Source: Fibrobacter sp. UWR3 (GTDB lineage Bacteria; Fibrobacterota; Fibrobacteria; Fibrobacterales; Fibrobacteraceae). Taken from it: DNA of 64,000 nucleotides. A program made the position numbers and the translations under genes. Where the stretch lies: assembly GCF_900143055.1 (NCBI RefSeq), contig NZ_FRCW01000003.1:186001-250000 (forward strand), read 5' to 3'. The notes below the pieces were generated by a model. That model was given only the letters and a program-made list of their open reading frames with translations, had not been told where the DNA came from and ran no database searches. Of this stretch, positions 25,917 through 28,931 are shown piece after piece; within the stretch, counting starts at the first letter, position 1; every line of letters begins with the position of its first letter.

Positions 25917-27317
25917 ATGGATACTTCATTACTTGACAAGGCAATCGTCTTCGCCGTAAAGGCGCACCAGGGCGTAGAGCGCCGGGGCAAGGACTTCCCG
26001 TACATTGTCCACCCGATGGAGGCAGTCTCGATTGCCGCCACCATGACCGGCGACCAGGAACTCCTGGCGGCAGCCGCACTGCACGATACGGTCGAAGATA
26101 CCGATGTCACACTCGACGACATCCGCCGTGAATTCGGCGAGCGCGTCGCGAAACTGGTAGAAGAGGAATCCGACGTATTTATGGAAGGGGTCTCCGAGGA
26201 AGCTTCCTGGCATGCCCGCAAGCAGGCCTCGATGGAGCGTCTCTCAAAAGCAAGCCGCGACGCGAAAATCGTAGCGCTTTCCGACAAGCTCAGTAACGCC
26301 CGTGCCATCTACCGCGATTTCAAGGAAAAGGGTGACGCCATCTGGAATATATTCCACGTGAAGGATGTTGCCGAACACGAATGGCACTACCGCGGGCTCC
26401 AGCGCGCACTGCACGAACTGGCGGGCACATTCGCCTTTACCGAATTCGGGCAACTCGTCCGCGAAATCTTTGGCGAACCCAAGCCCGAACGCATCAACAT
26501 GGACGACTACGAGGAAAGTGGCGACGGCTATACTGCGATAAGCTACAACCACAAGAACGGCAAGACGATGATGAAGCTCTACGCGCCGTTTGTCCCGATA
26601 AGCGAGCCCCACCGCGAACTCGAAGTGTCATGGAACCTTGCCGACAAAGGCCTGAACATCCCGCACGCGCACCGCCTGGTAACGGACGGCACCCGCATCG
26701 GCGTGGAATTCGAGCGCATCTCGCCCAAGAAGTCCTTTGCCCGCGCGATTTCGCAGGAACCGGAGACTCTCCGGCGCTATGCGGAGGAATTCGCCCGCGA
26801 ATGCAAGAAACTCCACGCGATTCCCTGCGACACGAAACTGTTCAGCCCGACAGAGAACCGCTTCCGCGCGGCAATCACCAAGCTCAAGGAATACTCCGAC
26901 GAGGAAAAGGCGAAAATCTCGGCGTTTATCGACAGCGTACCGAAGGCGACCACCTGCATCCACGGTGACATGCACATCGGGAACATCATCACGAACGGCG
27001 AAAAGAACTTCTGGATAGACCTTTCCGCCTTCAGTTACGGGAACCCGCTCTACGACGTGGGCATGCTCTATTTTGTTTCGCACACGGGCGACGACGAACT
27101 AGCGCAGAAGCTGTTCCATATCAGCGCGGCGCAGATGCTCGAGGTCTGGACCTACTTCGTTCCCGAATATTTCGGCAAGGAAGAGCCGCTCGCAAGCATC
27201 GACGAGAAGGTAAAGCCCTTCGCGGCACTCCTCATGCTCATGTACTACACCTGGACGGGAAACCCGCCTGCGGGAATGTTCGAACTCGTGAAACATTCCA
27301 TCCTGGAAAAATTCTAA
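25917..27317 (+). CDS. (p)ppGpp hydrolase-type HD domain fused to APH-like kinase
   Basis: 466 residues in two parts. Residues 1-185 are a Rel/SpoT/MESH1-type HD domain: KAHQGVERRGKDFPYIVHP, AALHDTVEDTDVTLDDI, and ALSDKLSNAR, so the metal ligands are in place. Residues about 195-466 are an aminoglycoside phosphotransferase-like kinase of the kind modelled as TIGR02172 in Fibrobacter: TTCIHGDMHIGNII (catalytic Asp and metal Asn) and FWIDLSAF, where the Asp replaces the usual DFG-like Asp. The fusion is unusual. It is followed after 15 bases by an alarmone synthetase gene, so it may be the detoxifying or balancing partner. What the kinase half phosphorylates is unknown. Confidence 0.85.
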   Translation: MDTSLLDKAIVFAVKAHQGVERRGKDFPYIVHPMEAVSIAATMTGDQELLAAAALHDTVEDTDVTLDDIRREFGERVAKLVEEESDVFMEGVSEEASWHARKQASMERLSKASRDAKIVALSDKLSNARAIYRDFKEKGDAIWNIFHVKDVAEHEWHYRGLQRALHELAGTFAFTEFGQLVREIFGEPKPERINMDDYEESGDGYTAISYNHKNGKTMMKLYAPFVPISEPHRELEVSWNLADKGLNIPHAHRLVTDGTRIGVEFERISPKKSFARAISQEPETLRRYAEEFARECKKLHAIPCDTKLFSPTENRFRAAITKLKEYSDEEKAKISAFIDSVPKATTCIHGDMHIGNIITNGEKNFWIDLSAFSYGNPLYDVGMLYFVSHTGDDELAQKLFHISAAQMLEVWTYFVPEYFGKEEPLASIDEKVKPFAALLMLMYYTWTGNPPAGMFELVKHSILEKF

Positions 27318-27332
27318 CCGGAGACTTGCCCC

Positions 27333-28445
27333 ATGCCTGTTGTTCCTGTAGAAAGTTACGGCCTGCATCCGCAGGGTACATTCATTATCGAGGAATTCCG
27401 CGAGAAGCACGCGATGTTCGAGAAACTGCTCACGGTCGTGCGCGGGATTCTTGAAAACGCAATGGCAGAAAACCACATCTACGTGAATGCCATCGAGGCG
27501 CGCGTCAAGGACGAGAAGAGCCTCGTGGGCAAGCTCGAACGCAAGGGCGAAAAGTACCACACGCTCAGCGACCTTACCGACATTTTGGGTGCGCGCGTCA
27601 TCACGTTCTACTACGACGAGGTCGACAAGATTGCGGCAATCGTCGGGAACACTTTCGAGGTGGACTGGGAAAACAGCATCGACAAGCGCAAGATGCACGA
27701 CCTGCACAGTTTCGGCTACAGTTCGCTACACTACATCTGCCGCGTCCCGAAAAAAATTTTCTTTGACCCGGAATTCCCCGAGATAAACGACATACGGTTC
27801 GAAGTGCAGATGCGTACCGCATTGCAACACGTATGGTCGGTGCTCGACCACGATACCGGATACAAGTCAGGGGTCGAAATCCCGAAGGAATACCTGCGCA
27901 GCATCAACAGGCTCGCGGGCCTGCTGGAACTTGCCGACGAGCAGTTCTGCCAGATACGCACGGGCATCAACGAATACCGGCGCCGCGTGCAGTCGCTCGT
28001 GAGTACCGGAAACTTCGAGGAGGTCTCGCTCGACGGCGATTCGTATGCGAACTACCTGAAGCTCAAGCCCTTCGACGCGCTCAACAACCGCATCGCATCC
28101 ATAAACCAGGCCGAAATCAGCAAGTCCCCGCTGCGCCAGTACCTGGACGTGTTCAAGCATCTGGGGTTCAAGACCCTCGGCGATTTGGACAGGTTCATCA
28201 AGGAAAATTCCGACGACGCCTTCCAGCTGGCGGCATTCCAGCTCGCGAATACCGACCTGGACATCATCAGTTCATCGCTCGGGGTAATGAGTCTCATTAC
28301 CGTCTACGCGCTCAAGTCGGGCTCGGGCCCGCTCGGGCTCAAGGACATATTCGATATCCTGTACGGTGAATCCGACGGCAACAAGCAGCGGGCCGAACGC
28401 CTTTACGAGAAGGCATCGCAGCTCTCGTTCATGCAGAAGAAATAG
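27333..28445 (+). CDS. Small alarmone synthetase-like protein (RelA/SpoT nucleotidyltransferase domain)
   Basis: 370 residues. The synthetase domain (about 20-200) has the expected blocks: LTDILGARVI, FGYSSLHYI, and FEVQMRTALQHVWSVLDHD. No HD, TGS or ACT domain is present, so it is of the SAS class. The C-terminal 150 residues are helical and not recognised. Predicted to transfer pyrophosphate from ATP to GDP/GTP, or, as in toxic SAS enzymes, to make (pp)pApp or modify tRNA. It has GGAG before the ATG and lies 15 bases after the HD-kinase gene. The pairing of a lone synthetase with a lone hydrolase looks like a toxSAS-antidote module or a split Rel system. Confidence 0.85.
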   Translation: MPVVPVESYGLHPQGTFIIEEFREKHAMFEKLLTVVRGILENAMAENHIYVNAIEARVKDEKSLVGKLERKGEKYHTLSDLTDILGARVITFYYDEVDKIAAIVGNTFEVDWENSIDKRKMHDLHSFGYSSLHYICRVPKKIFFDPEFPEINDIRFEVQMRTALQHVWSVLDHDTGYKSGVEIPKEYLRSINRLAGLLELADEQFCQIRTGINEYRRRVQSLVSTGNFEEVSLDGDSYANYLKLKPFDALNNRIASINQAEISKSPLRQYLDVFKHLGFKTLGDLDRFIKENSDDAFQLAAFQLANTDLDIISSSLGVMSLITVYALKSGSGPLGLKDIFDILYGESDGNKQRAERLYEKASQLSFMQKK

Positions 28446-28475
28446 CGGGATTGCCAAGGAACAGCGGATTTGAAC

Positions 28476-28931
28476 ATGTCTGAAATTGAAGCGCTCATCA
28501 AGAAACTTTCACCGCTCATGGAAGAAGGGTCCGAGATTTTCAAGGAACTGGCGGTCTTTTTCGGGCCCGGCTCAAAAATCGCGACGCACCAGGGCGACCT
28601 CGCGAAGTTCCTGGGGCGAAAGCGCCTTTACCGCGTGCTGAGGCTTTCGGGCAGCAGCTACAAGGATTGCGTGTACCAGCTGGTCGACGATCATCCCGAA
28701 TCGATGGAGGCGCTCGGGATGCTGCGCTACTACACATCGCCCGGCGGGAGCATCAAGTGGGAAGACATTGAGTCGGCAGAAATCGCCCTCGGGAAGGAAC
28801 TGACGACAAACGCCTACGGGTGGATGCCCGACGCATGGACCGCTTTTGAAGGCGCAGACGGCGAAGGGCAGGGTTCCGGCGAAAAAACGCACGGGCTTGT
28901 CGCCATCCTGGCATTCGATTACGGGGACTAG
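28476..28931 (+). CDS. Hypothetical protein in the alarmone operon
   Basis: 151 residues. Not recognised. It has an N-terminal helix (EIEALIKKLSPLMEEG), a stretch GDLAKFLGRKRLYRVLRLSG, and a C-terminal Gly-rich tail; no signal peptide or membrane segment. It starts 30 bases after the synthetase stop, so it is probably in the same transcript. The start is uncertain: ATG 28476, or TTG 28470, which has AAGGA at the better spacing. Confidence 0.6.
   Translation: MSEIEALIKKLSPLMEEGSEIFKELAVFFGPGSKIATHQGDLAKFLGRKRLYRVLRLSGSSYKDCVYQLVDDHPESMEALGMLRYYTSPGGSIKWEDIESAEIALGKELTTNAYGWMPDAWTAFEGADGEGQGSGEKTHGLVAILAFDYGD

Follow-up and report, generated by a model that had tools for sequence, protein, structure and literature searches.

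The genes considered here lie in a 64,000-nucleotide stretch of the Fibrobacter sp. UWR3 genome (contig NZ_FRCW01000003.1 of assembly GCF_900143055.1, positions 186,001 to 250,000; hereafter the window). Two of them, P0001 and P0002, encode a predicted small alarmone hydrolase (SAH) fused to a kinase (KIN) and a predicted small alarmone synthetase (SAS), respectively. An initial annotation, made from the letters of the sequence, had placed three open reading frames between positions 25917 and 28931, and these positions were reproduced in our analysis. The comparative evidence points less to a toxin-antidote pair than to a stress-signal circuit under sensor control, not described before, to which the SAS and its partners would belong.

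P0001 (25917-27317, forward strand) encodes a protein of 466 amino acids that begins with an HD domain of the SAH/RelH-like kind (residues 1-188; 25917-26480, forward strand) and continues into an APH-fold kinase domain (26493-27314, forward strand). A Pfam scan matched HD_4 (PF13328) to residues 9-142 (E 2.6e-21) and APH to residues 216-401 (E 6.7e-16). Against TIGR02172 the kinase scored 240.6 bits, above the curated cut-off of 228.2 bits, with all 226 model positions covered by residues 193-418 and the domain itself running on to residue 466. The hydrolase motifs are intact (H32, HD56-57, E60/D61, and D123 and N127 in SDKLSN), as are those of the kinase (HGDMHIGN at 349 and IDL at 367); the metal and catalytic residues of the former and the catalytic residues of the latter are invariant across relatives. 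All of this agrees with the initial annotation, which had read the gene as an HD hydrolase with intact motifs joined to a TIGR02172-type kinase. Judged by its HD fold and its metal and catalytic residues, the HD half is an SAH of the RelH type, and its model aligns with RelH of Corynebacterium glutamicum (7qoc) over 179 residues (VIA Z 25.4, root mean square deviation (rmsd) 1.5). At 12-17% identity and an rmsd of about 4, the kinase model resembles aminoglycoside and choline kinases (VIA Z 16-18), a type of fold that favours a small molecule as the substrate without being proof of it.

P0002 (27333-28445, forward strand; 370 amino acids) starts 15 nt 3' of P0001, behind its own GGAG ribosome-binding site. 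Its catalytic domain, a YjbM-type match, spans residues ~43-216 (27459-27980, forward strand), with RelA_SpoT (PF04607) at residues 57-180 (E 7.2e-16). The synthetase motifs RVKDEKSLVGKLERK, DLTDILGAR, FGYSSLHY, EVQMRT and HDTGYK are all present and are invariant or nearly so among relatives. With these motifs intact and no HD, TGS or ACT part in the chain, the protein falls among the SAS enzymes, as the initial annotation had it. It is not the bare synthetase implied there, however, for residues ~225-370 (28005-28442, forward strand) form a further domain of ~150 amino acids that is conserved in 26 relatives across phyla. This domain is mostly helical with short strands, and was modelled at a pLDDT of about 81-95. 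The Pfam scan of P0002 gave no match to it; neither that scan (for TPR repeats) nor the structure search (for a known fold) returned a hit there, the domain not having been searched alone. It may possibly be a regulatory or partner-binding part.

The synthetase is nearer in sequence and fold to RelP/RelQ than to CapRel, Tas1 or FaRel2. A search of the PDB with the SAS profile gave E values of 1e-18 to 1e-15 for RelQ/RelP and only 3e-4 for CapRel. The P0002 model matched RelQ/RelP with a VIA Z of 17.5 (rmsd 2.4-2.6, about 180 residues), as against 12.4 for CapRel (in an alignment that covers the synthetase part only, residues 5-203 of the model), 11.3 for an exported SAS, 10.5 for Tas1 and 7.5 for FaRel2. 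This nearness makes a (p)ppGpp-type enzyme more likely than a toxic SAS (toxSAS), although such a comparison of sequences and models is not a test of specificity. The allosteric motifs of RelQ, EFVT and LAMNFWAT (PMC10434055), are replaced in P0002 by YVNA and TALQHVWS.

The pairing of synthetase and hydrolase extends well beyond the window. In a sample of 111 Fibrobacteraceae genomes, where some absences may be gaps in metagenome-assembled genomes (MAGs), SAS is present in 55, and 54 of these have the matching SAH; the sole exception, G085, has a locus that is truncated where the contig ends. Nine genomes have SAH but no SAS. SAS changes state 13 times on the Rel tree, and among independent pairs SAH was concordant in 7-8 and discordant in none (sign test p 0.008). 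Most Fibrobacter carry SAH>SAS beside pgi, at one stable chromosomal place; the order is SAS>SAH-KIN in G044 and G046, and SAS>SAH>KIN or SAS>KIN in genus g6. The SAH-KIN fusion was found in six Fibrobacter genomes (G000, which is the window genome, G037, G043, G044, G046 and G080), the gene being split by a contig end in G044.

When 84,980 species genomes were scanned, at least 576 SAS relatives came to light, and the best 80 loci were analysed. Nineteen are from Fibrobacter/Fibrobacterales, and the other 61 are nearly all from Bacteroidales gut MAGs (one is titled Lachnospiraceae, perhaps through mis-binning). The gene orders in these 61 Bacteroidota-type loci are SAS>SAH-KIN with the fusion (13), SAS>SAH (10), SAS>KIN>SAH (6), SAS>SAH>KIN (5, in one of which KIN is 3.4 kb away), SAS>KIN (3), SAH>KIN...SAS (3) and KIN upstream of SAS (2), with neither partner in view in 19. 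Where a locus had no linked SAH, one was present elsewhere in 10 of 24 genomes. A Prevotella lineage (L151, L155, L158, L161, L165 and kin) keeps SAS with HD matches to long Rel only, and SAS is therefore tolerated there without SAH; the five of these tested for the kinase also gave no match. The SAS/SAH pair is old and recurrent. The initial annotation had reasoned that its idea would fall if the genes did not co-occur in other genomes, and had proposed a search for the fusion beside SAS in other taxa: SAH accompanies SAS in nearly every family genome that has it, many loci in Bacteroidota repeat the linkage, and the fusion itself recurs in both groups.

In a kinase tree of 68 rows, every fused kinase, from either phylum, falls in one clade (support 97/85), whereas the unfused linked kinases of Bacteroidales and the linked kinases of genus g6 are found in other clades, among free paralogues. 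A single clade of all linked kinases was rejected (approximately unbiased test, p-AU 4.6e-5), as was one uniting the fused and the Bacteroidales-linked kinases (8.4e-4). Kinases therefore joined SAS/SAH more than once, with no fewer than two or three distinct lineages as their sources, which rules out chance adjacency. The single fused clade points to one SAH-KIN fusion that was later moved or inherited and often lost again. The kinase is a real partner of SAS/SAH, fused or unfused, in Fibrobacterota and Bacteroidota. The initial annotation had remarked that the kinase was part of no such system it knew; the kinase recurs as a partner, and in the open-licence papers searched we found no description of SAS with APH, SpoIIE, partner switching or TIGR02172.

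The neighbours of SAS were unexpected. The commonest ones in Bacteroidales are partner-switching regulators, namely a SpoIIE phosphatase that carries a Cache and, in most cases, a HAMP domain, together with an RsbW-like HATPase and a STAS protein of ~100 amino acids; an NMT1-like binding protein and Y_phosphatase3 are also frequent. In 26 of the 61 loci, profiles built from the flanking genes placed STAS immediately upstream of SAS, at a distance of -13 to 55 nt, and in 31 of the 39 Bacteroidota-type loci with full flanks they matched at least one of STAS, HATPase and SpoIIE within ~6 kb. The linked STAS proteins carry the conserved phospho-site motif SSxGLR, and most Prevotella SAS genes without SAH keep the order HATPase>STAS>SAS. 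In Fibrobacter, switch genes stand at SAS in G046 (SAS>SAH-KIN>HATPase>STAS), G020 and G027 (SAS>SpoIIE-HATPase>STAS), G091 (STAS>SAS), G044, G026, G070 and G040; in G036, G081 and G087 they follow SAH, and SAS is gone. The SAS of G091 (L094:7783-8838) is a divergent one, 38% identical, with STAS directly upstream and away from that genome's SAH. Across the family, linked or not, this STAS type occurs in 54 of the 55 genomes with SAS as against 13 of the 56 without it (Fisher 7e-18), and the nine SAH-only genomes gave no STAS match at the threshold used. The window genome (3.5 Mb, the window lying on contig C3) encodes HATPase>STAS on C8 and a single Cache-HAMP-SpoIIE-HATPase protein on C6. 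Its STAS and HATPase are 78% and 64% identical to the SAS-linked copies of G046, and its SpoIIE-HATPase is 65% identical to that of G020.

Kinases of this family also occur in other company. TIGR02172 has many free paralogues in Fibrobacter, and at loci L184, L185 and L189-L194, where some stand in tandem, a gene for ~205-225 amino acids repeatedly comes next. The three such genes scanned encode GNAT acetyltransferases, possibly a second kinase partnership. Of the 20 loci around free kinases, only two gave STAS matches, both of them kinase-STAS fusions. Such fusions are present in G055, G100 and G108, with or without an adjoining Y_phosphatase3 in G100 and G055. TIGR02172-like kinases with an N-terminal STAS domain were seen at L201:3629-4828, L202:3500-4690, L372:921-2108 and L374:4522-5775; a Y_phosphatase3 gene lies beside the STAS-kinase in L202 and L372, the L202 copy being oriented divergently from a full-length Rel gene.

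The explanation we favour, with about even confidence, is an accessory alarmone cycle that is gated by partner switching and has the kinase as a second effector. Starting from what sequence comparison establishes (the enzyme families and the intactness of their active sites, the linkage of the genes in two phyla, the independent recruitment of kinases and co-occurrence with STAS), we infer the identity of the alarmone, a contact of the STAS protein or HATPase with the synthetase, and the nature of the kinase substrate. According to this model, P0002 would pyrophosphorylate a purine nucleotide, the product most likely being (p)ppGpp, and the hydrolase half of P0001 would remove that product, with the cell's own Rel kept alongside. 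A membrane Cache-HAMP-SpoIIE phosphatase and the RsbW-like HATPase kinase would set the phosphorylation of the STAS protein. That protein, or the HATPase, would then bind the synthetase, perhaps via its C-terminal domain, and switch it on or off. The APH-fold kinase would form another arm of this pathway. Its substrate is probably a small molecule, and a linked Y_phosphatase3 may oppose it in some species. Since the switch genes of the window genome stand at other loci, control there would act in trans.

Several observations weigh against this explanation. Once corrected for ancestry, the association of SAS with STAS is a trend of 4-5 to 0, with too few informative pairs to reach significance (p 0.06-0.125). 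No switch gene adjoins SAS in the window or in most of the Fibrobacter loci examined, and none was found in 8 of the 39 full-flank Bacteroidota loci. The presence of this STAS type in 13 of 56 genomes without SAS means that STAS proteins have other roles as well. Finally, the 61 loci belong to the top scorers among at least 576 relatives and come mostly from gut MAGs.

Among the alternatives, the one that survives best is a plain accessory ppGpp synthetase-hydrolase pair regulated through transcription only; the kinase would then be a metabolic passenger, and the switch genes would be neighbours that happen to be co-expressed. In its favour, SAS enzymes of the RelP/RelQ type are often under transcriptional control, most Fibrobacter loci consist of SAH>SAS beside pgi and nothing more, and free kinase paralogues are numerous in Fibrobacter, some of them adjoining GNAT genes. 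Against it stand the repeated recruitment of kinases from separate lineages, the 26 loci in which STAS abuts SAS, with varied gene orders, the existence of kinase-STAS fusions, and the near-constant presence of STAS in SAS-bearing genomes even when unlinked. We consider this alternative rather unlikely.

A slightly smaller probability, still well short of favour, goes to a toxin-antidote module, the first suggestion of the initial annotation. The synthetase would be a toxSAS-like growth inhibitor, and the SAH-kinase fusion would destroy the toxic nucleotide, as ATfaRel does for FaRel, with the kinase inactivating the synthetase or aiding detoxification. In its favour, in Fibrobacteraceae SAS never occurs without SAH outside the contig-edge case, while SAH stands without SAS in nine genomes, and SAH antidotes are known beside FaRel (PMC11782079). 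Distant solitary SAS genes of similar size, carried by prophages, by a filamentous phage and by a plasmid of 3.5 kb, can be counted on the same side. Against it, the enzyme resembles RelP/RelQ, the Prevotella lineage keeps its SAS with long Rel and with neither SAH nor kinase match, and the commonest Bacteroidales neighbours are partner-switching regulators, not antitoxins. No antitoxin of the pZFD, Tis1-like or PanA type was recognised among the annotated SAS neighbours, SAH itself being adjacent, and no close relative was found on phages or plasmids.

Anti-phage defence, in which infection would release the synthetase from restraint by the hydrolase and kinase and its product would halt growth, is improbable, and the initial annotation's proposal of a phage-defence module found little support. 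In its favour are CapRel, a related enzyme that acts as a phage sensor (PMC11782079), the occurrence of distant relatives as solitary prophage cargo, and a 60-bit match of P0002 to the PADLOC candidate model PDC-S33. That match covers only model positions 36-175 of 349, the catalytic part, and similar partial scores (48-63 bits) are obtained for quite different SAS from unrelated contexts; PDC-S33 is consequently not diagnostic, and we reject it as proof of defence. Close relatives of the SAS were found neither in IMG/VR, scanned with the SAS profile, nor in phages or plasmids, and most Fibrobacter loci keep their stable place beside pgi. Phage and plasmid matches are at most 40% identical, with 80% query coverage in one plasmid record only, and the six phage or plasmid loci examined held no SAH or kinase match.

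The distant relatives on mobile elements are solitary genes for 303-378 amino acids with 23-30% full-length identity, and four of them (336-378 amino acids) are L239:3989-5062, L240:3959-4969, L242:2447-3466 and L238:436-1572. These sit on a plasmid-prophage of Bacteroides, a filamentous phage of Vibrio, a prophage of Mycobacterium and a Klebsiella Col plasmid of 3.5 kb. The wider SAS family can therefore be mobile cargo, and these genes are possibly defence or fused toxin genes.

The last alternative, also raised by the initial annotation, is that the two genes are a split housekeeping Rel jointly replacing the bifunctional enzyme. Treponema denticola, for its part, manages without a long Rel, having a single SAS and a single SAH (PMC10434055). 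The idea is refuted for the window genome by an intact full-length Rel of 714 amino acids on C8, and with full-length Rel in 110 of the 111 family genomes, this one included, we give it almost no weight.

Two further genes of the window genome call for comment. P0003 (28470-28931; 153 amino acids), the third open reading frame of the initial annotation, which had called it unknown, indeed has no family match in Pfam or NCBIfam searches. It is not a member of the module but a dacB-side neighbour: in five genomes it is syntenic with genes for DacB and a solute-binding protein, apart from SAS (e.g. loci L073 and L103). A second, divergent SAS of 306 amino acids is encoded on C13 (G000:C13:76861-77241; L003, L371:6415-7335), starting 2 nt downstream of a gene for a 709-residue protein whose last 450 residues have no Pfam match; together the two could be a conflict-type system.

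Returning to the proposed partner-switched alarmone cycle, its parts are of known kinds and their combination is new. Rel, a Mesh1-like hydrolase and two divergent synthetases were reported from Fibrobacteres in a 2011 survey (PMC3153485), so that the separate parts were on record and the arrangement was not. More tentatively than the cycle as a whole, we propose that Cache-sensing SpoIIE, HATPase and STAS directly gate the alarmone synthetase in gut Fibrobacterota and Bacteroidota, with a nucleotide second messenger rather than a sigma factor as the output and an effector layer of two opposed enzyme pairs, synthetase/hydrolase and APH-like kinase/Y_phosphatase3. For most small alarmone synthetases no input is known. 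Should the linkage carry the meaning it suggests, an extracytoplasmic signal would reach this SAS family through a partner switch, and (p)ppGpp signalling in dominant fibre-degrading gut bacteria would have a further input at the protein level. The orphan TIGR02172 kinases would likewise gain a pathway in which to search for their substrate.

Set against described systems, P0002 shares its synthetase fold and all catalytic motifs with RelP and RelQ (SAS1/SAS2), but differs in its ~150-residue C-terminal domain, its lack of the RelQ allosteric motifs and its SAH and kinase partners. P0001 has the fold (Z 24-25, 30-33% identity) and intact HD motifs of the RelH/MixSpo enzymes of C. glutamicum (7qoc) and L. 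levettii (7qoe), whereas its hydrolase is fused to a TIGR02172 kinase and operonic with a synthetase. The Tde-SAS/Tde-SAH pair of Treponema denticola (DsRel with a TPR brake, and ActSpo2) likewise joins one SAS bearing a C-terminal regulatory domain, a role that is conjectural in P0002, to one SAH. There, no long Rel is present, the C-terminal domain is of the TPR type and no kinase is described (PMC10434055), whereas Fibrobacter has Rel and showed no TPR in the Pfam scan. FaRel-ATfaRel of Cellulomonas marina also encodes SAS and SAH together, but the product of FaRel is toxic (pp)pApp, and a type II antitoxin comes with it as well (PMC11782079), while the Fibrobacter SAS is RelP/RelQ-like, with no such antitoxin seen and a kinase and partner switch instead. 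The P0001 kinase scores above the cut-off of TIGR02172, a Fibrobacter APH-like paralogous family, and departs from it in being fused to an alarmone hydrolase. Lastly, the SAS-linked loci share with Rsb/SpoII partner switching the SpoIIE phosphatase, the HATPase_c_2 kinase and a STAS protein with SSxGLR, but here the gene adjoining the switch encodes an alarmone synthetase and not a sigma factor.

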